Positions 7,594 to 41,584 of a DNA stretch of 41,584 nucleotides are shown here, one piece after another. The notes under the pieces were generated by a model. The model searched no databases. It saw only the letters and a program-made list of their open reading frames with translations, and was not told where the DNA came from. Origin of the DNA: Desulfuromonadales bacterium (GTDB lineage Bacteria > Desulfobacterota > Desulfuromonadia > Desulfuromonadales > Geoalkalibacteraceae); the NCBI GenBank assembly GCA_024636255.1, contig JAGXHK010000068.1:1-41584 (forward strand), read 5' to 3'. The first letter of the stretch is position 1. Each line of letters starts with the position of its first letter. The position numbers and the translations under genes were made by a program.

Positions 7594-9510
7594 CTAATGA
7601 TATTGCCGGGATTCTTCCTGCACGAAGCGGACAAAATCAGCCGGCGTCATGGGATCAAGGCTCTTGCCGGAGCGGTGACGCGGCGCGACTGTGCCGCCTT
7701 CCATCTCACGGTCACCGATGACAAGCATATATGGGATTTTTTCCATCTGGGCCTCGCGGATCTTGAAACCTAGCTTTTCATTGCGCAGATCTTTCTGAAC
7801 ACGAACACCTTCGGAACGCAGATGATTGAAGACCTGCTCGGCGTACTCGGCTTGATTATCCGTCACATTGACAACTACAGCCTGGACCGGTGAAAGCCAG
7901 AGCGGAAAATTTCCGGCATAATGTTCGATAAGTACACCGATAAACCGCTCGATCGCGCCCAGGATGACACGATGGACCATAACCGGACGATGTCTTTCTC
8001 CGTCGCTGCCGATATAAGAGAGATCAAAGCGCTCTGGCAGGGTAAAATCGCACTGGATTGTAGCACACTGCCAACGCCTGTCAAGCGCATCCTTGAGCTT
8101 GATATCGATCTTCGGGCCATAAAAAGCCCCGTCGCCTTCGTTGATCTCGAAAGGCAGTCCAGAGTCTTTCAAAGCGCTGAGCAGAGCAGTGGTGGCACGT
8201 TCCCAATCTTCTGTCGTGCCAATGGACTTTTCGGGGCGGGTTGAGATTTCCATCTCATATTCGAAACCGAAAATTTCCATCACATCCTGAACAAAAGTCA
8301 GCACGTTCTTGATTTCGCCATCAAGCTGCTCCGGAGTGCAGAGGATATGAGCATCATCCTGGGTGAAACCACGCACCCGCAACAGACCGTGAAGCACCCC
8401 GGATTTTTCATGCCGATGAACTGTCCCCAGTTCAAAAAAACGCAGAGGCAGATCCCGGTAGGAGCGGATCTGTGATTTGTAGATCAGCATATGTGCGAGG
8501 CAGTTCATGGGCTTGATGCCGTATCCCTGCCCTTCCACCTCGGTGAAATACATATTCTCGCGGTAATTTTCGTAATGCCCCGAGGTCTTCCAGAGCTCCG
8601 TGCGCAGGATCTGCGGCCCCATCACAATGTCGTAGCCGCGCTTGAGATGCTCACGTCGTTCGAAGTCTTCGAGCAGGGTCCGGAGCATCGCGCCCTTTGG
8701 ATGCCAGATGACCAGTCCGGCACCCGCCTCTTCGCTGAACGAGAAAAGATCAAGTTCTTTTCCAAGCTTGCGATGATCGCGCTTTTTCGCCTCATCCAGC
8801 TTGTGCAGGTACTTTTTAAGGTCTTTTTTATCCGGAAAAGCCGTAGCGTAAATGCGTTGTAACATGGCGTTTTTCTCATCGCCACGCCAGTAAGCACCGG
8901 CAACGCTGGTAAGCTTGAACGCTTTAAGAAAGCCAGTGGAAGGAAGGTGAGGACCGCGGCAGAGGTCGGCAAAATCGCCTTGCCGGTAAACAGAAACGGT
9001 CGGCTCGCCCAGATCTTCGATCAGCTCGACCTTGTACTGCTCACCCATCCGCTGAAAGAGATCAATCGCCTGCTCGCGGCTCATGACTTCACGCTCGACG
9101 GGCAGGTCAGCCTTGGCCAGTTCGGCCATTTTCTGCTCGATAATATCGAACTCTTCCGGAGTAAATTTGTGCGTGTCGCTATAGAAGTCGTAGTAGAATC
9201 CGTGTTCGATCGCCGGTCCGATCGTGACCTGCACGTCATGGCCGAACAGAGACTTGACGGCATGAGCCATCAGATGGGCGGCAGAGTGACGATAGATCTC
9301 GAGCCCCTCGCGGCTGCCAAGGGTCACAAGTTCGAGCCGGGCATCGCGCTGGAGAGGCAGCTGCGCATCGACCAGCTCTCCGTCCACCTTTGCGGCGACT
9401 GTCTGCCGGGCCAGCCGCTCGCCGATGGAGCGGGCGAGATCAAGCGGTGTGGTCTCTGCCGGGACTTCCTTGATCGTACCGTCGGGAAGTTCAACACGAA
9501 TTTGATCCAT
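7594..9510 (-). CDS. thrS: Threonyl-tRNA synthetase
   Basis: The 638-residue class II synthetase charges tRNA-Thr and edits Ser-tRNA-Thr. Domains in order: TGS at about 3-63, the editing domain with [11 protein letters not shown] (HxxxH) and CRGPHLP, the catalytic core at about 240-535 with the zinc cysteine in [11 protein letters not shown] and [15 protein letters not shown] (motif 2), and the C-terminal anticodon-binding domain from about 540. The track's start at 9516 (MVM) leaves no room for a ribosome site. ATG at 9510 has GGGGG 7 bases upstream and is preferred. The gene begins only 17 bases after the terminator that follows tRNA-Val. Confidence 0.97.
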
Positions 9511-29916: not shown

Positions 29917-30432
29917 TCAGAAATTTTCCAGCAGGGAAAAATAAAGGTTCTCAGCCAGGCGGCGACTTGCTGAACGTATTGCGACCTGCTCCCTTTTTTC
30001 CTGCTCGGTAATATCGTCAATACTGGCGGCGAATTCTTCAGCCCAGGTCAGCTCGGATTGCCACAGAACACGTCCGCTCTCCCTTTTTTGCAACTGAGCG
30101 CGAACTCCGATTCTGGCACTGAACTCGTTGATGCGATCCTCGCTGTCGAAACCGACCGGTCGCGAAGAGAAGTGGATAACACTGCCTTGCAGAAGCGCAT
30201 CGGCGCGCTCTGCCTGCTCGACCACCCTGAGACCGCGACGTCGGGCAAATTGCTCAACGATATCGTTGGTCAGAATATCTTCCAGAAACGGCTCGGTGGT
30301 GCGATTGGCGAACATCTCGATGTAAACGGTCTCAACCTCGCCGGGAAAGGGCGTGCCGCGCCCGACGACGTGATAGCCGCAGCCAGCGAACGCCAGGGAC
30401 GCGAGAAGCAGCAGAAGCGCAAATCTGCTCAT
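29917..30432 (-). CDS. lptE: LPS-assembly lipoprotein LptE
   Basis: LptE plugs the LptD barrel that inserts lipopolysaccharide into the outer membrane, so the organism has an LPS outer membrane. The 171-residue product has a lipoprotein signal peptide, [18 protein letters not shown], with Cys18 as lipidation site, followed by GYHVVGRGTPFPGEVETVYI, typical of the LptE/RlpB family. The track start adds 34 residues within leuS; ATG at 30432 shares one base with the leuS stop (TGATG). HolA follows after eight bases. Confidence 0.93.
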   Translation of the reverse strand: MSRFALLLLLASLAFAGCGYHVVGRGTPFPGEVETVYIEMFANRTTEPFLEDILTNDIVEQFARRRGLRVVEQAERADALLQGSVIHFSSRPVGFDSEDRINEFSARIGVRAQLQKRESGRVLWQSELTWAEEFAASIDDITEQEKREQVAIRSASRRLAENLYFSLLENF

Positions 30433-32987
30433 CAGGAAATAACGATATTGACCAGCCGACCGGGAACAACGATCACTTTGCGCACCGTTTTCCCCTCGAT
30501 AAATCGACTGACGTTGGGATTTTCGAGAGCGCATGTTTTAACGGTCTCCTCATCAGCGTCTGCAGCGACCTCGATCTTGCCACGCACTTTGCCGTTGACC
30601 TGAATAACGATGGTGAGGGCTTCTGCGGCGAGGGCCGCTTCGTCCCACTGGGGCCAGCCGGCCGCCTCGATGCCCTGCTGGTGTCCAAGAGCGACCCAGA
30701 GTTCTTCACTTATATGGGGGACAAAAGGGGCAAGTAACCGCACCGCCGCCTCAAGGGCTTCGCGCAAGGTGCCGGCGGCCTCGGCTTTTGACTCGAAGGC
30801 ATAGACGGCATTGACCAACTCCATGATCGCGGCAATCGCAGTATTGAAATGAAAGCGGCCATCGATATCCTGGGTGACTTTTTTAATCGTTCGATGCGTG
30901 GTGCGGCGCAGATCCCGGGCGGCGCCAGATACATCCTGCGGCACCGTGGCGCCCTCGATCAATGAAAGATTCTCGGCGACGGCGCGCCAGACGCGGTTGA
31001 GAAAACGATAGCAGCCCTCAACGGCCTGATCGCTCCATTCAAGGTCCTTCTCAGGCGGCGCGGCAAAAAGTATGAACAGGCGGGCGGTATCAGCCCCGAA
31101 GCGCTCGATCAGGCTATCCGGATCGATCACGTTTTTCTTCGATTTGCTCATCTTTTCAGTGCGGCCCAAAGTGACCGGCGCTCCGCACCGTCCGCATTTC
31201 CCGTCCTCCACCTCCTCGGGATAAAGCCAACCGTGCTCGGAACAGGCGATGGTCTCCATGCAGACCATTCCCTGAGTCAGCAGATTTGAAAACGGCTCGT
31301 CCAGATCGATCATACCCAGGTCGCGCAGAACCTTCGTGAAAAACCGGGCATAGAGCAGATGCATGACCGCGTGCTCGATGCCGCCGATATACTGATCGAC
31401 AGGAGCCCAGTAGCCGGCGCGCCAGCGATCGACGGGGCCTTGCTGATAATCGGGGCTGGCGTAACGCAGAAAATACCAGGAACTCTCGACAAAGGTATCG
31501 AAGGTATCGGTTTCGCGCCGTGCAGCGCGACCGCATTCAGGGCAGCTTGTCCGCACGAATTCGGCGTGCGTGGCAAGGGGGCTGCCCCCTTCCCCGGTCA
31601 GCGCCACGTCGGTCGGCAAAATGACCGGCAGCTGCTCGCGGGGCACAGGTACGGCTCCACAGTGTTCGCAATAGATGATGGGGATCGGCGTACCCCAGTA
31701 GCGCTGACGGGATACGCCCCAGTCGCGCAGGCGATAATTGATGGTTTTGCTCCCCAATTCGCGCCGGTCGAGATAGTTGGCAATCTGTTCTTTGGCTACA
31801 TCATTATCAAGGCCGTCAAATTCGCCGGAATTGACCAGACGCCCCGTGCCGACGTAGGCCTCTTCCAGAGTCTCGGCTTGCAGTTCCTGCCCCTCCGGCT
31901 GAATCACGACCACCATCGGCAGATCGTATTTGCGGGCGAACTGAAAATCGCGCTGGTCATGTGTCGGGACAGCCATAACGGCACCGGTGCCATACTCCAT
32001 GAGTATGAAATTCGCCAGAAAGACCGGCATGCGGCGGCCCGTAATGGGGTTGAGACAAAAGGATCCGGTAAAGACACCTTCTTTTTCGAACTCTTCGCTG
32101 GAGCGCTGGAATTTGTCCTGTTTTTTAACCCGGCGGATGAAATCTTCGACATCCTGGCGCTTTTCATCCGTCGTCACCTCGAGCGCCAGAGGATGTTCAG
32201 GGGCCAGGCTCATGAAAGTGGCGCCACACAACGTGTCTGGCCGGGTTGTAAAAACGCGGATCTTCTGCTCTGAATTCTCGAGAACGAAATCAATCTCGCA
32301 TCCGGTGCTGCGCCCGATCCAGTTTCGCTGCATGGTCAGAACACGTTCCGGCCAGCCCGTCAGCTTTTCGGTCTGCTCAAGAAGTTCTTCGGCATAAGCG
32401 GTGGTTTTGAAGAACCATTGATCGAGTTCCTTGCCTTCGACCTCAGATTCACAACGCCAGCAGCTGCCGTCCTCGACTTGCTCGTTGGCGAGCACCGTCT
32501 GACAGGTGGGGCACCAGTTGACGGCTGAGCTTTTCTTGTAAGCCAGGCCACGTTCGAACATTTCAAGAAAGACCAGCTGCTCCCAGGTGTAATAATCGAC
32601 GTCGCAGGTGGCGAACTCGCGATCCCAATCGTAAGAAAATCCCATTTTCTGGAGTTGGATGCGCATATTATCGATGTTCTTGTATGTCCATTCTGCCGGA
32701 TGGGTGCCATGCTGAATCGCCGCATTCTCAGCGGGCATGCCGAACGCATCCCACCCCATGGGATGAAGAACATTGAGCCCCTGCATCCGTTTGAAGCGAC
32801 CGACAACGTCCCCGATACTGTAATTTCGCACATGTCCCATGTGGATCCGGCCTGATGGATACGGGAACATTTCAAGGACGTAATATTTTTCTCTGCCGGC
32901 CTCGGCCTCGACCTTGAAGGTCTTGTTCTCTTTCCAGAGCCTCTGCCATTTTTCTTCAACCGCTGCAGGATTGTAGCGCTCTTCCAT
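30432..32987 (-). CDS. leuS: Leucyl-tRNA synthetase
   Basis: The 851-residue class I synthetase charges tRNA-Leu. It has the HMGH motif at residues 49-52, a zinc knuckle ([21 protein letters not shown]), quoted here as CPTC...CWRC, the CP1 editing domain (about 225-415) with [13 protein letters not shown] and [15 protein letters not shown], a second Cys cluster (CSEHG...CGRCG) in the leucine-specific insertion, and KMSKSKKN before the anticodon-binding domain. The ATG at 32987 has GGAGG upstream. It overlaps lptE by one base. A TATAAT box lies in the infA-leuS gap. Confidence 0.98.
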
Positions 32988-33514: not shown

Positions 33515-34588
33515 TCAGGTCGGGTGGCGAAGGATCTCTGCTCCGATGCCATCCAGGGCCACAACCGCGTCGATCATTCCGGTGGCGATCGCTTCTTTCG
33601 GCATACCGAAGACAACGCATGAATCTTCGGCTTCGGCAATGGCTCGCCCGCCATGGCCCTTGATCGCCTTGACTCCGGCGGCGCCGTCGTTACCCATTCC
33701 GGTCAGGACCACCGCGATCAGCCGCTGGTCGCAGACCTGGACAGCGGATAGAAACATGGCATCGACCGAAGGGACATAGCGCTGAGCCGGGTCCGGATCG
33801 GCCAGATGCGCCACCAAACCACTGGCACCGCGCCGGAAAAGAAGATTTTTTCCCCCAGGGGCGACCAGAACTCTGCCTGGCTTGAACAAATCGCCGGTTT
33901 TGGCCTCGCACACTTCAAGATCACAATACCGGTCCAGGCGTTCGGCAAAAGCCCGGGTGAATTCTGCCGGCATATGTTGAGAGACGGCGAACATGAGCGG
34001 GGTATTGCCGGGGATCTGTGAAAGAACAGACTGCACGGCGGGCGGACCGCCGGTTGAAGAACCGATCAGGACCAGGCCCTGCGGATATCCGGTTCGGACA
34101 TCAGGGCGTAGCGCGGAGCGTCTGAGTGGATCGCGAGGCTGCGCTTTTAGCAGACCCTCGCTTCGCAGGGAAATCTTATCCATATCGGCACGCAAGGCGG
34201 CCAGCACTTTATGCACCAGGTCGTCGCGGATGTTGAAAAGCTGAGCATCGCTGCGCGCGGTCGGCTTGGCGACAAATTCGAAGGCGCCCAGTTCAAGGGC
34301 CTTGAAGACGTTTTCATCTTCTCCCTGGGACGAAATGACGATTACCGGGGTCGGACGGTTCTGCATGACAATACGCAGAAAGGTAAAGCCATCAATCTTC
34401 GGCATCTCGAGGTCGAGAGTGATCAGATCGGGCTTAAGATCGTAGACCTTGCGCAAACCATCTTCGCCGTCGACCGCATAGCCGACGATCTCGACTTGCG
34501 GCACCGCCTCAAGAATTTTAATGATGGTGCGCCGATTGAAAGCCGAATCGTCAACCACAAGGACGCGGATTTTTCCGGCGGTTCTCAT
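33515..34588 (-). CDS. cheB: Chemotaxis response regulator protein-glutamate methylesterase CheB
   Basis: CheB removes methyl groups from (or deamidates) receptor glutamates and is activated by CheA phosphotransfer. The 357-residue product has a receiver domain (about 7-125) with VVDDSAFNR, phospho-acceptor Asp59 in LITLDLEMPKIDG, and a C-terminal esterase (about 165-355). The catalytic triad is visible: Ser in LIGSSTGGPPAV, His in AVSQHMPAEFTRAF, and Asp in LTGMGNDGAAG. It overlaps cheR by four bases (ATGA) and is the last gene of the che operon. No clear terminator follows. Confidence 0.97.
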   Translation of the reverse strand: MRTAGKIRVLVVDDSAFNRRTIIKILEAVPQVEIVGYAVDGEDGLRKVYDLKPDLITLDLEMPKIDGFTFLRIVMQNRPTPVIVISSQGEDENVFKALELGAFEFVAKPTARSDAQLFNIRDDLVHKVLAALRADMDKISLRSEGLLKAQPRDPLRRSALRPDVRTGYPQGLVLIGSSTGGPPAVQSVLSQIPGNTPLMFAVSQHMPAEFTRAFAERLDRYCDLEVCEAKTGDLFKPGRVLVAPGGKNLLFRRGASGLVAHLADPDPAQRYVPSVDAMFLSAVQVCDQRLIAVVLTGMGNDGAAGVKAIKGHGGRAIAEAEDSCVVFGMPKEAIATGMIDAVVALDGIGAEILRHPT

Positions 34589-35463
34589 CGGGAATCCTCC
34601 AGCTTTCTTGACTGGAGCGGGCGCTGGTAGACCATATCGTGAGTGAAGTGTCGCAGAACGAACTGGTTGCTTATATTCATAAGGGATTCGGAATGACCCA
34701 AAAGTAAAAACCCTTCGGGCCGCAAACGACTGTTGAAACTTTCAACGACCTTCTTTTTCGCCGGAAGATCAAAATAGATAATCACGTTGCGGCAAAAAAT
34801 TGCATCGAGAGTACCGAGCAGCGCAACCCGGGAATCATCAAAGAGATTCAGATGGCTGATGCTTACCAGACTCTTCACTTCATCGGCAATGCGGTACTTT
34901 CCGTCGACTTCGTTAAAGTAGCGCTTCATATATCGTGCATCTGTCGTCCGGAAAGACGAGGCGCCGTAGACCCCTTTGCGCGCAACCTGCAGAACGCGCT
35001 GACTGATATCGGTGCCGATAATGTCGATATCCCAGCCTCGTAATTCGGGAGCCTCGAGCAGAAGCATGGCCAGCGTGTAGGGTTCTTCGCCCGTCGAACA
35101 GCCGGCGCTCCAGATGCGCAGGGTGCGTACGCCTTCCTTCTTCTTGCGCGAAACGATCTCGGGAACGATCTCGCGGGCGAATGTTTTGAGCTGGCTTTCT
35201 TCGCGAAAAAAATAGGTTTCGTTGGTGGTCAACAGATCAATGGCCGCGGAGACTTCTTCTTCTCTGTTCTTCCCGTAGCGCAAAAGATAATAATAATCCT
35301 TAAAATTTTTCAGCTTGTGCGTGCGGACCTGCTTGCTCAGGCGCTTCTCGATCAGATACTTGTTTTCTTCCGAAAAATAGAGGCCGCAATGATGGTAGAT
35401 GAAATCCCGCAGCAGCCGGAACTCCTCGTTCGTCATCGGAATATCGGGCGTGAATTGAAACAT
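34585..35463 (-). CDS. cheR: Chemotaxis protein methyltransferase CheR
   Basis: CheR methylates receptor glutamates using SAM. The 292-residue product has the N-terminal helical domain (about 10-75) and the catalytic domain with TTNETYFFREESQ, the SAM motif RIWSAGCSTGEEPYTLAMLL and DAIFCRNVIIYFD. It lacks the C-terminal TPR or pentapeptide-binding extension seen in some CheR proteins. ATG at 35463 overlaps the stop of the HEAT-repeat gene by one base; the track's first codon (TTG) precedes it. Presence of cheR and cheB implies a methyl-accepting receptor, which is not in the window. Confidence 0.97.
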   Translation of the reverse strand: MFQFTPDIPMTNEEFRLLRDFIYHHCGLYFSEENKYLIEKRLSKQVRTHKLKNFKDYYYLLRYGKNREEEVSAAIDLLTTNETYFFREESQLKTFAREIVPEIVSRKKKEGVRTLRIWSAGCSTGEEPYTLAMLLLEAPELRGWDIDIIGTDISQRVLQVARKGVYGASSFRTTDARYMKRYFNEVDGKYRIADEVKSLVSISHLNLFDDSRVALLGTLDAIFCRNVIIYFDLPAKKKVVESFNSRLRPEGFLLLGHSESLMNISNQFVLRHFTHDMVYQRPLQSRKLEDSR

Positions 35464-37541
35464 CAAACCTGCTTCCTGTCTTCGGAGACCGTTGAGAGCA
35501 GCTCTGTAATTTTTTCGCGGACCATGTCATCTTCCTCCACCAGCAGGCGCTCCTCCAGCCGCTCTCTGCACAGAGCCGCTTCCTGTGGCTGAAACGATGT
35601 GACAAAAGCCAAACGGACATCCCAATGGTCGTGATCGAGAAGGCTATCACAATGAGAAAACAGCCAGCTGCGATCCGAAAGACCGGACAATCCCCGAAGC
35701 GCGGTTTTAACGACTTCTTCGTCAGAATGAACAAGTGCCTGTAGAAGTTCATGGCGGGCAGCCTGCGGGTGGCGTTTCGCCAATGTCTCGAGGCCGGCAA
35801 TAACCACCAGCTCGACGGGATCGTGAAGCGCGCTCTTCACAAACGCCATCGCCCGCTCTGAGGGAAAATTTCCGAGAGCACGTACGGCGGCGGAACGAAC
35901 CCAGATATCCTCGTCATTGAGCGCCAAAGCCAGTGGCGCAACGCACATCGGATCGCCGCTGGCACCCAGAGCCTCGGCAGCCAGAGCGCGAACGCCGGAA
36001 TCCTCATCCGTCAATGCAAGCTGTAGCGCACGCAGATTCTCATCGCCGCGCGCTTCCAGGCCCCGTACGGCTGCCTGGCGAACTGCTGCTGATTCATCCT
36101 TCAGCGCACCGAGGATGTACCTCGCTGTTTCAGGGCCGCCAATTTGGCCGAGAATGCGTATGCATTCGGCACGCACCGCCCCGTCCGGACCCGCAGCCAG
36201 CTGGGAGATGTTTGCAGTAACCTCTCCCGGGCACACACCGCCCAGGATGCATAGGGCTTCGGCGGCGGCATCGCGTACGCCTTCTGCCTCATCGTTGAGA
36301 GCAGCACACAGAGGATCGATGCTTTCAACCTCGCCCAGGCGCCCGAGGGCGGCGGCGGTGACCTGCCGGCGCAGACTTTGAGGTGCACCAAGTTCTGGAA
36401 TCAGCATCTCTGTCAACTCTTTGCACTGAGCCCTCCCGGCAAGCTCAATGAGGTAGAGATCCTGTTCCTCGTTTTCCCCCAGGTGCTCGCGCACGAGATC
36501 GCAGATCGCGCCCGGACCACAGGCCAGGAGCGCAGCGCCCGCATTGTCGCACAAGGCGTCATCGCCAAGCAGAGGGAGCAATCTGTCTGCAATCCGCGCA
36601 TCGCCAATCCAGCCGAGAAGCTGAACGGCCGCCTTTTGCGTTTCGCGTTCACCGCCTTCGAGAAGCTCAGCGATCTGAACTACCTGCTGGGTGTCTCTCA
36701 GCTTCACCAGTGCATGGCGAACCTCTTCCCCATTGTGCCCGGCAATGCGGGTCAGAGCGCATGCGGCGGCGGCGCGAGCTTTTTTGCCCGCATCGCCCAG
36801 TCCTGCGATCAAAACGGGTACGACCTCTTCGCTGCCGATATGCCCAAGGCAGTCAAAAAGGGGTTTACGCAAAAGCGCATCCTCCTGAAATGCTAAAAGC
36901 TTTACAACCGGAACCCTCTCTCCGATCCGGGACAACGCTTCAAGTATGGTAAATCGCCAACTGAAATCAGGCACCTGCATCGCATCGAGCAGAGCGGGTA
37001 TCGCTTCGCTCGAACCCACTTTGCCCAGGTTTTCAACTGCGGCCGTGCGCACGTTCGGATCTTCGTCGGCAAAACATCCGATCATCGCGCCGACCGCTTT
37101 TTCATCGCCAATGTCCCCGAGAATATCGAGCACAAACTTTCGTACGTCCTGGTCGGAGCTTTTCAGCTCTTCCAGCAATTCCGGGGTGGCGAGAGACCCC
37201 AGCTTTATCAGAATTTCCAGTGCGGCATTGCGAAGACCCGCATTTTCCTGATCATGCAGCAAGGAGATAATTTCACCGAGCTGCTGCGACGGGTCCTTAC
37301 AGGAAAAAAAGTATAAAATAGCCTCTTTGCGCACGCGCCAGCTCGCGTCTCCAAGTCCTCTGCGAAGCAGCTCCGCTCTGAGGTCGATATTCTGCTCCCG
37401 GGCCTCGAGAAACGCCTGCAGACGAAGCTGTTCATCTTCACTATTGAGGTTACCGTTGATGCGTTGTTCAAGCTCATTCAAAATGCGCTTCTCCTCAAAT
37501 CCACTCACGGAATTAGCCGTCACTAATTTTATTTTTGGCAA
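35463..37541 (-). CDS. HEAT-repeat protein of the chemosensory operon
   Basis: The 692-codon frame encodes an almost continuous array of about 20 HEAT/PBS-lyase-like repeats of ~31 residues, e.g. DPNVRTAAVENLGKVGSSEA, DEAEGVRDAAAEALCILGG, DESAAVRQAAVRGLEARGD, and DEDIWVRSAAVRALGNFPSE. Such solenoids bind proteins; no catalytic motif, signal peptide or membrane segment is seen. The start is uncertain: TTG at 37541 has GGGG 4 bases upstream, while TTG at 37481 (residue 21) has AGGAG with a 9-base spacer and may be the real start. It lies between cheW and cheR and overlaps cheR by one base, so it should belong to the signalling complex, perhaps as a scaffold or output partner. Function is not known. 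Confidence 0.9.
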   Translation of the reverse strand: MPKIKLVTANSVSGFEEKRILNELEQRINGNLNSEDEQLRLQAFLEAREQNIDLRAELLRRGLGDASWRVRKEAILYFFSCKDPSQQLGEIISLLHDQENAGLRNAALEILIKLGSLATPELLEELKSSDQDVRKFVLDILGDIGDEKAVGAMIGCFADEDPNVRTAAVENLGKVGSSEAIPALLDAMQVPDFSWRFTILEALSRIGERVPVVKLLAFQEDALLRKPLFDCLGHIGSEEVVPVLIAGLGDAGKKARAAAACALTRIAGHNGEEVRHALVKLRDTQQVVQIAELLEGGERETQKAAVQLLGWIGDARIADRLLPLLGDDALCDNAGAALLACGPGAICDLVREHLGENEEQDLYLIELAGRAQCKELTEMLIPELGAPQSLRRQVTAAALGRLGEVESIDPLCAALNDEAEGVRDAAAEALCILGGVCPGEVTANISQLAAGPDGAVRAECIRILGQIGGPETARYILGALKDESAAVRQAAVRGLEARGDENLRALQLALTDEDSGVRALAAEALGASGDPMCVAPLALALNDEDIWVRSAAVRALGNFPSERAMAFVKSALHDPVELVVIAGLETLAKRHPQAARHELLQALVHSDEEVVKTALRGLSGLSDRSWLFSHCDSLLDHDHWDVRLAFVTSFQPQEAALCRERLEERLLVEEDDMVREKITELLSTVSEDRKQV

Positions 37542-37595
37542 ACTACCCCGTTCCGGAGCGTGCGTCGCCTTTATTATTACCTGCTTGCCGGCAGC

Positions 37596-38123
37596 TTAGG
37601 GACTCTGCCCGCTTCCGGCCTGGCGGATTTTCTCGACAGCGATCTTCTCTTCCGACGTCAGGATCCGCTCGAGGTTGAGAATCATCATCAACTCACCATG
37701 CACTCTGCAGACGCCGATGAAAAAATCCGCATCGCTGCCCTTCATATACTGAGGCGCAGGTTGAATCTCCTGGCGCGTAAAAGGCCTGACTTCAGTGACC
37801 TCATCGACGATCAGACCAATAACTTTCCCGGACAGAGAGCAGATGATCACGCGGTTCTTGCGCCCCGGTTCAAAAGATTGATCGAAGCGCTTGCGCAGAT
37901 CGACCACCGGGATGACCGCCCCGCGCAAGTTGATCACGCCTTCAATAAATGGCGGGGCCTTGGGCACAGGGGTCAATTTCTGGGGCTGGATAATCTCGCG
38001 AATACACATGATGTCCAGGGCGTACAGCTCTGAACCGATACGAAAACAGGCCAGTTTAGCTTCGTCGCGAGGCGCTTTTTTTTCTCTGTCTCCGGCCTGC
38101 ATACAGGACACCGTCTCTGTCAT
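37596..38123 (-). CDS. cheW: CheW coupling protein (short form)
   Basis: CheW bridges receptors and CheA. The 175-residue product has one CheW domain at about 22-165: ACFRIGSELYALDIMCIREI, PPFIEGVINLRGAVIPVVDL and GLIVDEVTEV are the family's strands. About 20 charged residues precede it. ATG at 38123 overlaps the stop of the response-regulator gene (ATGA). It is one of two different CheW proteins in this operon. Confidence 0.95.
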   Translation of the reverse strand: MTETVSCMQAGDREKKAPRDEAKLACFRIGSELYALDIMCIREIIQPQKLTPVPKAPPFIEGVINLRGAVIPVVDLRKRFDQSFEPGRKNRVIICSLSGKVIGLIVDEVTEVRPFTRQEIQPAPQYMKGSDADFFIGVCRVHGELMMILNLERILTSEEKIAVEKIRQAGSGQSP

Positions 38124-38491
38124 TTTGAAATATAGCGCTGAATCGTTTCGATCACCATCGCCGACTTGAACGGCTTGGTGATATAGCAGTCGGCTCCGGC
38201 TTCCCTGCCTTTTTCCATGTCTTCGCGTGTCTTTTTGGCGGTCAGCATAATCACAGGGATATCGCGGGTCTGCGGATCTTGTTTAATCTTTCGACACACT
38301 TCGAAACCGTCCATTTCCGGCAGCATGATGTCGAGAAGCACCAGATCGGGGAGGCATTTATGTATCTCCTCAAGAGCGGCCCTGCCATTGGTAGCCCCCT
38401 TGACCTCGAATCCCTTGGAGGTCAACAGAATGCTTTCAAGTTTAAGCAGGCTCTCTTCATCCTCGACGATCAGAATCTTCTTTTTGGGCAC
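38120..38491 (-). CDS. Single-domain response regulator (CheY-like)
   Basis: The 123-residue product is a lone receiver domain: acidic pocket E10-D11-E12 in ILIVEDEESLL, phospho-acceptor Asp54 in LVLLDIMLPEMDGFEVCRKI, Thr in VIMLTAKK, and Lys in YITKPFKSA. It has no output domain, so it probably acts by protein contact like CheY or PilG. The track begins at 38521, but GTG at 38491 has AAGGAG with a 7-base spacer and gives the normal N-terminus (PKKKILIVEDEE). It overlaps the next cheW by four bases. Confidence 0.94.
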   Translation of the reverse strand: MPKKKILIVEDEESLLKLESILLTSKGFEVKGATNGRAALEEIHKCLPDLVLLDIMLPEMDGFEVCRKIKQDPQTRDIPVIMLTAKKTREDMEKGREAGADCYITKPFKSAMVIETIQRYISK

Positions 38492-38507
38492 GTGCGGTCT
38501 CCTTCCG

Positions 38508-39245
38508 TCAGTGATCAACATGTTCAGAGATCAGGATTTCTGTCAGATTAAGCAGGATGAGCAAACGGCCCTGCTGCCGACCAACTCCCTTCACCAGATC
38601 TCCATCCAGATCAGGCAGCATGCTCGGTGGAGGCTCAATGTTGCGTTCGGCAATGCGGACGACCTGGGTAATCGACTCGACCAGCATGCCCGCGACCCGA
38701 TCATCCTGCTGGCAGACAACAATCCGTGAGGAAGAGGTCTCCTCGGTCACTCCGAGACGTAGCCTGCGTTTCAGGTCGAATATCGGTATGACGACCCCGC
38801 GTAGCGAAATTATACCAAGTATGTATTCGGGCGCACGAGGAATTTCGGTAATACCGATCGGTTTGATAATCTCACCGACCCCCTCGATATCCAATGCATA
38901 TTCTTCCTTCCCAAGGAAAAAAGTCAACCATTCCCTGCGCGCCTCGGCATAGTCTTCGCTCCCTCCCCCTCCGACCAGGCCCTGGTAGTACGTCTCTTCC
39001 GTCGCAAGTTGCAAATCTTTGCACTCGGAAAAAAGCACATCCAGAGGATCTTGCCTATCAGCGGGAGGAGCTAAGGGCTGCTTTTCCGGTGAATGCGCGG
39101 GCGGTTGGTGCCCATGCTCCTCAGGCACGCCCTGAATTGTCGAGGCGCGTCGGGCACTTGTCTGCCTGTTGCTCTCCCTGCGTGAGGAGGAGCCCTCGGC
39201 GACATTCTGCGCCTTGGCTTTTTTCCGAATTTCGGCTAAATCCAT
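38508..39245 (-). CDS. CheW-domain protein with a long N-terminal extension
   Basis: The 245-residue product has a CheW domain at about 105-240 (WLTFFLGKEEYALDIEGVGE, APEYILGIISLRGVVIPIFD). The first ~100 residues are polar and low in complexity, rich in Arg, Ser, Gln and Pro (SSSRRESNRQTSARRAS, HQPPAHSPEKQPLAPPA), then a short helix (DVLFSECKDLQLATEETYY). This tail looks disordered and could tether a partner. It is 16 bases upstream of the response regulator and 22 bases after the AAA+ ATPase gene. Confidence 0.92.
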   Translation of the reverse strand: MDLAEIRKKAKAQNVAEGSSSRRESNRQTSARRASTIQGVPEEHGHQPPAHSPEKQPLAPPADRQDPLDVLFSECKDLQLATEETYYQGLVGGGGSEDYAEARREWLTFFLGKEEYALDIEGVGEIIKPIGITEIPRAPEYILGIISLRGVVIPIFDLKRRLRLGVTEETSSSRIVVCQQDDRVAGMLVESITQVVRIAERNIEPPPSMLPDLDGDLVKGVGRQQGRLLILLNLTEILISEHVDH

Positions 39246-39267
39246 CGATTCTTCCTTCGAAGCCGTT

Positions 39268-40074
39268 TCAGGCGCAGAGGTTAAGCTCCTCCATCACGGA
39301 TTCCATGATCCCCATGTCGATTTTATGAGCCTCACGGCCGAAGCCTTCGAGTAGTGCCAGCGATGCGGCATGATTGGCCTTGCGCGGAACACCCAGGCAG
39401 TAGTCATGAAGCAGATCGACCGCTTCGGGTAAAAAAAGCCCCGGCTTGCCGCCGGCAACCAGAAGACGGTGATCGAGGTAATCGGAAAGCTCTTCGCGGC
39501 TGAGCGGACGCAGATGATACTGCATGCCGATACGCTGGCGTAAAGCCTCGTAGGCGCGATGAGCCAGGCGGCGTCGCAATTCTGGCTGGCCGACCAGCAC
39601 GACGCTGAGCAGATTGCGGTCATCGAGCTGAAAATTAGTCAAAAGACGTATCTCGTCGAATGTTTCCTTGTAGGGAATCAGCTGCGCTTCGTCAATGACC
39701 AGCACCGGGCAGCGCCCCAGCTCGTAGAGCTGGTAGAGCTCGGCCCCGATCTGTTCGAGCAGATCGGTCTTGAAATGGGCTGGCTCCTCAACTCCCAGAC
39801 GCCGCGCAAGCGTCCTGAGAAACTCGAGCGGTGAAAGACGCGGGTTGATGATCAGAATGACCTTGTATGTTTCATCGAGCTCATCGAGCAAGGCTCTGGA
39901 CAGCGTCGTCTTTCCGCTGCCGATCTCACCGGTAAGCAGCGCCAAATCCCTTTCCTCAACCGCGTAAAGCAAGCGCGCCAGGGCTTCGCGATGCGCTTTG
40001 GCGAGAAAGAGAAAGCGCGGATCGGGCGTCTTGCTGAAGGGACGCTCGTTGAAGCCGTAGAAAGCCTCATACAT
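39268..40074 (-). CDS. ExeA/GspA-like AAA+ ATPase
   Basis: The 268-residue product starts MYEAFYGFNERPFSKTPDPR, the hallmark of the ExeA/GspA (type II secretion) and TniB-like ATPase family. Walker A is GEIGSGKTT at about 49-57, Walker B VLVIDEAQL at about 124-132, sensor-like LVGQPEL near 160, and an arginine-containing RIGMQYHLRPLS follows. It lacks the transmembrane helix and peptidoglycan-binding domain of full ExeA. The track start (GTG 40092) is less likely than ATG 40074, where homology begins; this overlaps the cheA stop by eight bases. Its place between cheA and cheW implies a role with the chemosensory system. The role is unknown. Confidence 0.9.
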   Translation of the reverse strand: MYEAFYGFNERPFSKTPDPRFLFLAKAHREALARLLYAVEERDLALLTGEIGSGKTTLSRALLDELDETYKVILIINPRLSPLEFLRTLARRLGVEEPAHFKTDLLEQIGAELYQLYELGRCPVLVIDEAQLIPYKETFDEIRLLTNFQLDDRNLLSVVLVGQPELRRRLAHRAYEALRQRIGMQYHLRPLSREELSDYLDHRLLVAGGKPGLFLPEAVDLLHDYCLGVPRKANHAASLALLEGFGREAHKIDMGIMESVMEELNLCA

Positions 40075-41551
40075 GAGTAACTGCATCTCCACGCAGGGAC
40101 TCGCTCATCAGCCCGCCGACATCAAGAACAAGAATCGTCTTGCGGTTCCCGAGATCGGCCGCGCCGGCGAACCCTTGTATAAACGAGAGAATGTTCCCAA
40201 GCGGTTTGATCACCACATCCTGCTGCCCGAGAAGATCATCGACAACGATTCCCATCCGTTTGTCGGCCATTCCCACCACGACCACGAAAAAAGGCCGTTC
40301 GGTGACTGCCGCGCACGGAAATTTGAAAAGCCGGCTCAGGCGGGTCAATGGCAACGTGCTCTGGCGCAGCTCGATGACTTCGCGTCCTTCGATGGTACGG
40401 ATCACCGATTGATCGACCATGATGGTTTCCATGACCGAATTGATGGGAATCGCGTAATCGCGGTCACAAACTCGGATAATAAGCGCTTTGATGATCGCCA
40501 GGGTAATCGGCAGCGTAATGGAGGTCGTCGTACCGCGCCCCACTTCGCTTTCGATCTCGATCATGCCGGAGAGAGATGAAATATTGCTTTTGACCACATC
40601 CATTCCGACGCCTCGGCCGGAGAGCTCGGTGACCTGATCCGCGGTTGAGAAACCGGGCATGAAAAGAAGATCGAAAACCTCCTCACGGGTCATCTCAGCC
40701 CCCGTCTCGATCAGCCCCTTTTGAACCGCCTTTTGCTTAATCTTTTCCGGGTCGATTCCGCCCCCGTCGTCGGCGATGCGAATGACCACATGGTTGCCCT
40801 GCTGGGCGGCGCTCAACCTGATATCGCCTTTTTCCGGCTTGCCTGCGGCTTTCCGATCGGTAGGCAATTCAATGCCGTGGTCAATGGAGTTGCGGATAAT
40901 GTGCATCAAGGGATCCGCCAGATCTTCAATGATCAGCTTGTCCAGTTCAGTGTCGGCTCCATGCACAGTAAGAGCGACCTTCTTGCCGACCTCGGAAGCG
41001 GTCTGCCGCACGATCCGGCCCATCTTGTCGAAAAGCTGGCTGATGGGCACCATGCGAACTTCCATGACTCCCTTCTGGAGTTCGCTCAGGCGCCTCTCGA
41101 GAATGCGTGTCGCCTTCAGCAGATCGAGTCCGAATTCGTTCCCCTGGCCCTTGAGGCGCTCCGAAATATCGGATATAGCGCCTTTGGCGATCACCAGCTC
41201 ACCGACGATGTTCATAAGCGTATCGAGTTTATCGATATCGACACGGACCATGCGACTGATCGAGCGCAGGCTCCCCCCGCTGTCCTGGGTCTTATTCTCT
41301 TTTTTCTGAGCAGGCTCCGGCGGGCGCACGGCAATTTCGGGTGTGGTGCTTGATGCGATTGGATTTTTGCGTGCCACGGCCCTGATCCGGACGCTTTCCG
41401 AGTCAAGCAAGGCGGCAAGCTCCTCCTCGGAAAGAGGGGTGCCGAGCAAAATCTGAAAAGCAATAGCTTCAGGGTCTTCGCTGTCGGAGCTGGGCAGGGT
41501 GCTGACAACCTCACCGTCCTTTTTCAGCAATTCGGTCACGCGGGAGAGATC
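40067..41551 (-). CDS. cheA: Chemotaxis histidine kinase CheA, 5' end missing
   Basis: About 494 residues of CheA are present. The first five residues of the ORF track (MYKRQ) are translated adapter and must be removed; real sequence starts DLSRVTELLKK at 41551. Visible domains: a P2-like or inter-domain region with LLKKDGEVVSTLPS, a linker, the P3 dimerisation helices (VDIDKLDTLMNIVGELVIAK), the P4 ATPase with N box HIIRNSIDHGIE, G1 DDGGGIDPEKI and G2 GRGVGMDVVKSNI, and the P5 CheW-like domain to the end. The P1 histidine-phosphotransfer domain and any gene upstream lie beyond the contig. The stop overlaps the AAA+ ATPase gene. Confidence 0.95.
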   Translation of the reverse strand, partial: DLSRVTELLKKDGEVVSTLPSSDSEDPEAIAFQILLGTPLSEEELAALLDSESVRIRAVARKNPIASSTTPEIAVRPPEPAQKKENKTQDSGGSLRSISRMVRVDIDKLDTLMNIVGELVIAKGAISDISERLKGQGNEFGLDLLKATRILERRLSELQKGVMEVRMVPISQLFDKMGRIVRQTASEVGKKVALTVHGADTELDKLIIEDLADPLMHIIRNSIDHGIELPTDRKAAGKPEKGDIRLSAAQQGNHVVIRIADDGGGIDPEKIKQKAVQKGLIETGAEMTREEVFDLLFMPGFSTADQVTELSGRGVGMDVVKSNISSLSGMIEIESEVGRGTTTSITLPITLAIIKALIIRVCDRDYAIPINSVMETIMVDQSVIRTIEGREVIELRQSTLPLTRLSRLFKFPCAAVTERPFFVVVVGMADKRMGIVVDDLLGQQDVVIKPLGNILSFIQGFAGAADLGNRKTILVLDVGGLMSESLRGDAVTHV

Positions 41552-41584
41552 CTGTCTCTTATACACATCTGACGCTGCCGACGA
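41552..41584 (-). other. Nextera read-1 transposase adapter (not genomic)
   Basis: Read on the minus strand, these 33 bases are the Nextera read-1 adapter ending in the Tn5 mosaic end. Genomic sequence stops at 41551. Its translation in the cheA frame is the well-known artefact MYKRQ. Confidence 0.98.

Follow-up and report, generated by a model that had tools for sequence, protein, structure and literature searches.

An AAA+ ATPase and a HEAT-repeat solenoid as regular members of a probable Esn-type chemosensory cluster in Desulfuromonadia

Chemosensory (che) clusters of the beta group, as described by Tran et al. (2008), comprise cheA, cheW, cheB and cheR without an mcp gene, are conserved among delta-proteobacteria and, by unpublished hints, take part in control of the extracellular matrix (PMC2577667). 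Geobacter lovleyi and G. uraniireducens are named there as hosts, cluster 5 of G. sulfurreducens belongs to the group, and no Geobacter che cluster adjoins flagellar genes. Using transposon sequencing (Tn-Seq) and clean deletions to identify electrode-growth genes in G. sulfurreducens, Chan et al. (2017) found that electrode growth needs GSU2220 (CheW, EsnB), GSU2222 (CheA, EsnC), the receptor EsnA and the diguanylate cyclase EsnD; esn mutants are defective in electrode growth and normal in Fe(III) oxide reduction (PMC5585712). GSU2221, which lies between esnB and esnC, is listed in the same work as an 'ATPase' with a reduced rate in Tn-Seq, while EsnA (GSU1704) is a GAF receptor of class 40H whose gene lies outside the cluster; two-hybrid assays show it to pair with both EsnB and EsnC. 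An esnB insertion raises the activity of a cyclic GMP-AMP (cGAMP) reporter, as does deletion of esnD (PMC8835794), and the beta-group cluster together with EsnA homologues is present in five of five Desulfuromonas genomes (PMC8235581). Here we describe a cluster of this kind, read 5' to 3' on the minus strand as cheA - AAA - long cheW - response regulator - cheW - HEAT - cheR - cheB, in a Desulfuromonadales bacterium. The window analysed is the entire contig C150 (JAGXHK010000068.1, 41,584 nucleotides) of an assembly of 2.2 Mb in 201 contigs that is 82% complete (GCA_024636255.1).

Judged by its arrangement, the locus is very probably the Desulfuromonadales version of the beta-group/Esn system, and it is likewise from the arrangement that we infer orthology to the GSU genes. 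An earlier note, made from the letters of this contig, had proposed eight genes on one strand (33515-41551, minus); all of them are present and the families named are borne out by Pfam. The same note held that the AAA and HEAT proteins are standard parts of no chemotaxis pathway that it could name, a view that has to be given up as the arrangement is that of the beta-group/Esn cluster (PMC2577667, PMC5585712, PMC8235581). We therefore rejected the view that the two proteins are foreign to every known pathway, since the literature has both the CheW-ATPase-CheA order of Esn and the beta clusters; with a published description of the cluster in existence, most of the novelty that the note had expected is gone. 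The class-wide membership of both genes and the CheW tail described below were unmentioned in the main texts of the open literature that we searched, for which no priority is claimed.

Conservation of the cluster across Desulfuromonadia

Of the 277 genomes of the class, 198 have the cluster-type AAA gene and 201 the HEAT gene, whereby the two extras are regular parts of a known and probably non-flagellar system. Within the order, 76 of 136 genomes have one match each to the HEAT protein, which in G078 is divided between two contigs. The AAA matches listed for the order fall into two groups by score: cluster copies reach at least 317 bits and other ExeA-like ATPases at most 214. The same gene order recurs in 40 neighbourhoods drawn from HEAT-positive genomes of the order and again in an independent collection of 80 loci from titled records, which are partly the same contigs as the first set. 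These 80 loci come from Geoalkalibacter, Desulfuromonas, Geothermobacter, Malonomonas, Geobacter, Geomobilimonas, Pelotalea and Oryzomonas, and from some metagenome-assembled genomes (MAGs) of Nitrospirae/Thermodesulfovibrionales. All eight core genes are recognisable in 73 of the 75 distinct loci that have room on both sides, and a simple order check was passed in 63; the misses among the others may reflect cross-assignment of paralogous cheW or receiver genes. Because the same order recurs across the class, the arrangement is far beyond chance. Thus the gene-order search that the earlier note had suggested shows an order that is widespread and not confined to this contig, the HEAT and AAA genes belong to it regularly, and the single chemosensory system that the note had put together is real and conserved across the class.

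The usual order is der - DUF4388/receiver - receiver - cheA - AAA - long cheW - receiver - cheW in the 5' half and, after this cheW, Zn-ribbon/receiver - HEAT - cheR - cheB - GAF - receiver - leuS in the 3' half. The protein of Zn-ribbon and receiver between cheW and HEAT (L047:11467-12417 and orthologues) is present in most relatives and missing in the window's own family. Most relatives also have the DUF4388 and receiver protein (L047:17428-19152 and orthologues) upstream of the cluster, with a layout like that of PatA-type regulators.

Each of the two extras has been lost in some lineages. Two beta clusters, L053 (G125; 7800-8040) and L198 (G127), are without the AAA gene and without the N-terminal tail of the long CheW in every frame checked, and keep CheA and the response regulator; G126, a congener of both, has AAA gene and tail alike. 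In L206 (G217; 9382-9459) it is the HEAT gene and the Zn-ribbon/receiver gene that are lost, with AAA and the CheW tail kept. AAA and HEAT are therefore separable from each other.

ATPase, CheW tail, solenoid and candidate receptor

The AAA protein has a confident predicted structure (AlphaFold2 (AF2), pLDDT 94) of which the nearest solved folds are MuB, TnsC and ORC/Cdc6, the best PDB matches being MuB 8xvb and TnsC 7m99. MuB, TnsC and ORC/Cdc6 work as ATP-dependent oligomers. By sequence, the search for relatives in the PDB gave weak matches only, to MuB and VirB11. Conserved motifs include Walker A and the DEA of Walker B, and the match to the XrtA/PEP-CTERM ATPase family TIGR03015 reaches 232.8 bits, which is below the curated cut-off of 324.5.

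The long CheW of the window consists of an N-terminal peptide, a variable linker of about 93 amino acids and the CheW domain. An alignment of 84 orthologues gives the consensus M[DN][LI]AxIRKKA for the first ten positions, with I6, R7 and K9 at 100%, K8 at 96% and A10 at 94%; it may be noted that the 84 sequences were selected by a pattern for the tail motif, so the fixed R7 and I6 are partly so by construction. After the tail these orthologues have a hypervariable linker of 60-169 residues rich in A, E and P and then the CheW domain, the mean share of the majority residue being 0.85 in the tail, 0.26 in the linker and 0.60 in the CheW domain. Among 100 intact long CheWs taken without selection, 92 fit a loose tail pattern and seven more were accepted by inspection, these being variants such as MDLAKIRQKA or lying in another frame. 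Some form of the tail is thus found in 99 of 100 AAA-bearing loci, and L153 is degenerate. The tail persists in distant loci from Nitrospirae-type MAGs and in the AAA-bearing loci L161, L163 and L167, also very distant, and in L163 it is kept though cheA and AAA are the only other core genes recognised. An apparent AAA-CheW gene fusion in G208 and G209 was rejected, as the extra length of these AAA frames is open frame that precedes the true start. The two AAA-less clusters have no tail and the HEAT-less L206 retains it, so the tail tracks AAA and not HEAT. On this pattern, we consider the chances about even that the tail is what attaches the MuB/TnsC-like ATPase to the receptor array.

The HEAT protein is modelled as a confident alpha-solenoid (AF2 pLDDT 96, pTM 0.84), and the solved structures near the model are generic solenoids only (importin-beta, CAND1, SF3B and alphaRep, with TMq at most 0.52 among the matches listed). 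Its conservation peaks at about residues 60-165 and off the usual repeat consensus (W62, R63, K66, N94, G96, N99, K129, F130, N157 and E164), which suggests one binding patch. In the Che7 system of Myxococcus xanthus, the HEAT protein Cpc7 works with the single-domain CheY7 (Darnell et al. 2014, as cited in PMC11514114). By analogy with this pair and with OE2401F of Halobacterium (PMC2666748), we put the chances at about even that the HEAT protein of the cluster is a partner of the response regulator, on the output side. A HEAT-like repeat protein of G. sulfurreducens, KN400_2162, is mutated in two long-term anode-evolved strains (PMC13194489), and the offset of locus numbers suggests that its gene may correspond to the cluster's HEAT gene.

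A search with MCPsignal found about nine chemoreceptors elsewhere in the window's genome. The best candidate partner, as its sequence fits the published description of EsnA, is a protein of contig C141 whose N-terminus is hydrophobic and which has GAF and MCP signalling domains, the latter with the tip AAIIAAQAGE. EsnA-like relatives above 300 bits are present in 65 of the 76 HEAT-positive genomes of the order vs 1 of the 60 HEAT-negative ones (Fisher p 7e-26 by genome, a value inflated by shared ancestry, and 8e-4 by family, where families are taken as the units). This co-occurrence was tallied by hand from two tables with at most eight receptor candidates scored per genome, which leaves room for a few false absences. 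The HEAT-negative genomes are still rich in other receptors (up to 58 first-look candidates).

Proposed signalling and its alternatives

We propose that a receptor encoded elsewhere, for which the GAF-MCP protein of C141 is the best candidate, would form an array with CheA and the two CheWs, in which CheA would phosphorylate the single-domain response regulator and CheB, and CheR and CheB would adapt the receptor. The tethered N-terminal peptide of the long CheW would most likely dock the MuB/TnsC-like AAA+ protein on the array, where its ATP-dependent oligomerisation could tune array assembly or output, and the HEAT solenoid would most likely bind the response regulator and relay the signal as Cpc7 does with CheY7. 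The output would be surface colonisation, matrix and cyclic di-GMP rather than flagellar switching; that it is non-flagellar we regard as highly probable, and the direction of signalling is deduced. The combination in which the AAA+ protein is a constitutive, tail-docked subunit whose oligomerisation sets assembly or output, with HEAT as an effector controlled by the response regulator, is offered as a tentative proposal. If true, it would make the tail-docked AAA+ protein and the HEAT effector an ATPase-coupled class of chemosensory array.

Several points weigh against this account. The case for orthology to Esn is built on gene arrangement and on conservation across the class, some lineages do without AAA and some without HEAT, and 11 HEAT-positive genomes are without a full-length match to an EsnA-like receptor. 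AAA and the tail adjoin in the DNA, so that a single contiguous deletion may account for the loss of both in two species of one genus, and a polar effect on esnB could explain the Tn-Seq phenotype of GSU2221.

CheY-binding peptides such as those of FliM and CheZ are short conserved terminal peptides on a disordered linker. The tail has this same layout, and its loss together with AAA was probably one event; it might then be unrelated to AAA and bind the response regulator or CheA instead. This we think rather unlikely, since the tail is retained where the adjacent response regulator is unrecognised (e.g. L137 and L141), is present in the very distant AAA-bearing loci named above and is lost in L053 and L198 despite the CheA and response regulator kept there. 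Another reading takes up the scaffold proposed in the earlier note and makes HEAT a structural element within the array that would bind CheA or CheW and not the response regulator. The large size of the solenoid, its conserved patch and the place of its gene between cheW and cheR, close to the latter, would suit such a role, but both published HEAT precedents (Cpc7 and OE2401F of Halobacterium) act around or after CheY and not as an array scaffold, and the CheW tail is probably not the HEAT ligand because it is kept in L206 in the absence of HEAT; we therefore hold the scaffold to be unlikely.

A motility pathway, in which type IV pili or flagella would be under the direct control of this system, appears improbable. 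The genome does have a flagellin, on another contig, and several ATPases of PilB/PilT/GspE type (type IV pilus/type II secretion), and Esn-linked phenotypes in G. sulfurreducens overlap with pilus and polysaccharide genes. On the other hand, the conserved neighbours of the cluster are der, DUF4388 and leuS and not motility genes, no flagellar gene lies beside the cluster in the window, as the earlier note had said, and the absence of flagellar neighbours in Geobacter (PMC2577667) and the electrode-specific defect of esn mutants (PMC5585712) point the same way.

Esn is one of the few signalling systems known for electrode or surface colonisation in electroactive bacteria. In the parts of the literature that we consulted, earlier Esn work covers CheA, CheW, the receptor and the diguanylate cyclase only. 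Our comparison adds two members, the AAA+ ATPase and the HEAT solenoid, to the Esn-type system across Desulfuromonadia, and yields a receptor candidate and a ten-residue peptide bearing on how the ATPase joins the array.

Genes of the window and comparison with known systems

Features of the cluster and its surroundings (positions in the window)
Feature	Coordinates	Strand	Evidence
cheA (EsnC-like), 3' 494 codons only	40067..41551	-	Pfam H-kinase_dim, HATPase_c, CheW
Nextera read-1 adapter, non-genomic	41552..41584	-	adapter sequence match
AAA+ ATPase (position of GSU2221), 268 amino acids from conserved MYE start	39268..40074	-	Pfam AAA_22 7e-25
Long CheW (position of EsnB, GSU2220)	38508..39245	-	Pfam CheW 2e-34 at residues 106-238
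N-terminal peptide MDLAEIRKKA of long CheW, putative docking type	39216..39245	-	conservation profile of orthologues
Single-domain response regulator	38120..38491	-	Pfam Response_reg 1e-29; annotated start 38521
Second, short CheW	37596..38123	-	Pfam CheW 7e-41
HEAT-repeat solenoid, 692 amino acids	35463..37541	-	Pfam HEAT_2 at 7e-71
cheR methyltransferase, likely ATG at 35463	34585..35466	-	Pfam CheR_N/CheR, CheR 1e-58
cheB methylesterase with receiver	33515..34588	-	Pfam CheB_methylest 4e-60 and Response_reg
leuS, conserved neighbour downstream of cluster	30432..32987	-	same neighbour in many loci

The core described earlier as complete does have all its families, but cheA runs off the end of the contig and its Hpt domain is missing. 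The window CheA aligns at 70% identity to residues 187-677 of the 680-residue CheA from L039; the Hpt (P1) domain occupies the N-terminus of one full-length CheA relative and is lost at the contig end here. The N-terminal part of cheA was sought on the other contigs of the same assembly and not found. The apparent GTG start of cheA at 41566 falls inside adapter sequence. A Nextera read-2 adapter is also present at the opposite end of the contig (window 1-30), and adapter-terminated contigs occur elsewhere in the assembly (e.g. L085 and L176). Because adapters remain at contig ends, gene ends at the contig edges of this genome are untrustworthy.

Five of the seven junctions had been taken to overlap. 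Four do so clearly (cheA/AAA by 8 nucleotides, response regulator/cheW by 4, HEAT/cheR by 1 and cheR/cheB by 4), but the fifth, long cheW/response regulator, overlaps only with the start at 38521, as the GTG at 38491 gives a gap of 16 nucleotides and is the better ribosome site with a good Shine-Dalgarno. The remaining gaps are 22 nucleotides (AAA/long cheW) and 54 nucleotides (short cheW/HEAT). The receiver residues of the response regulator (acid pair, D, T and K) are intact in the translation.

Compared with the beta group, the set of cheA, cheW, cheR and cheB without mcp is the same by Pfam. The MCPsignal search of the genome finds no MCP domain in contig C150, as the earlier note had seen; the upstream side lies beyond the contig end, and annotated relatives show no mcp there. 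An HD-domain gene, the mark of the alpha group, is absent between cheA and leuS in the window, as in the beta group and unlike the alpha group. The difference is that HEAT or ATPase genes are unmentioned in the main text of PMC2577667. Three genes found in most relatives, those for the Zn-ribbon/receiver, GAF and downstream receiver proteins, are also missing from the window version. With Esn it shares the CheW-ATPase-CheA neighbours in the order of GSU2220-GSU2222 and a membrane-anchored GAF receptor encoded away from the cluster, while function is demonstrated in G. sulfurreducens only and the HEAT gene is not discussed in the passages of PMC5585712 used here.

The AAA protein shares its fold with MuB and TnsC and its family (AAA_22, with 232.8 bits to TIGR03015) with the ExeA/XrtA-associated ATPases, from which it differs in falling below the TIGR03015 cut-off, in its length of 268 amino acids with no further domain found and in its place in a che cluster. 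For the solenoid, Che7 of M. xanthus likewise pairs a HEAT protein with a single-domain CheY, but its cluster includes an mcp (PMC3945109), and Cpc7 is taken here as an analogue of the window HEAT protein. OE2401F (HEAT_PBS) of Halobacterium is also a HEAT-repeat protein, essential for chemosensory output, but it is archaeal, tied to CheF (DUF439) and the archaellum, and has another gene neighbourhood (PMC2666748). The Che8 cluster of M. xanthus is tabulated as cheY8b-cheA8-cheW8b-cheW8a-(4755, 4754)-cheR8-cheB8-cheY8a, with no mcp and no gene between cheA8 and cheW8b (PMC3945109), and judging by the locus numbers it fits a beta cluster of the AAA-less kind.

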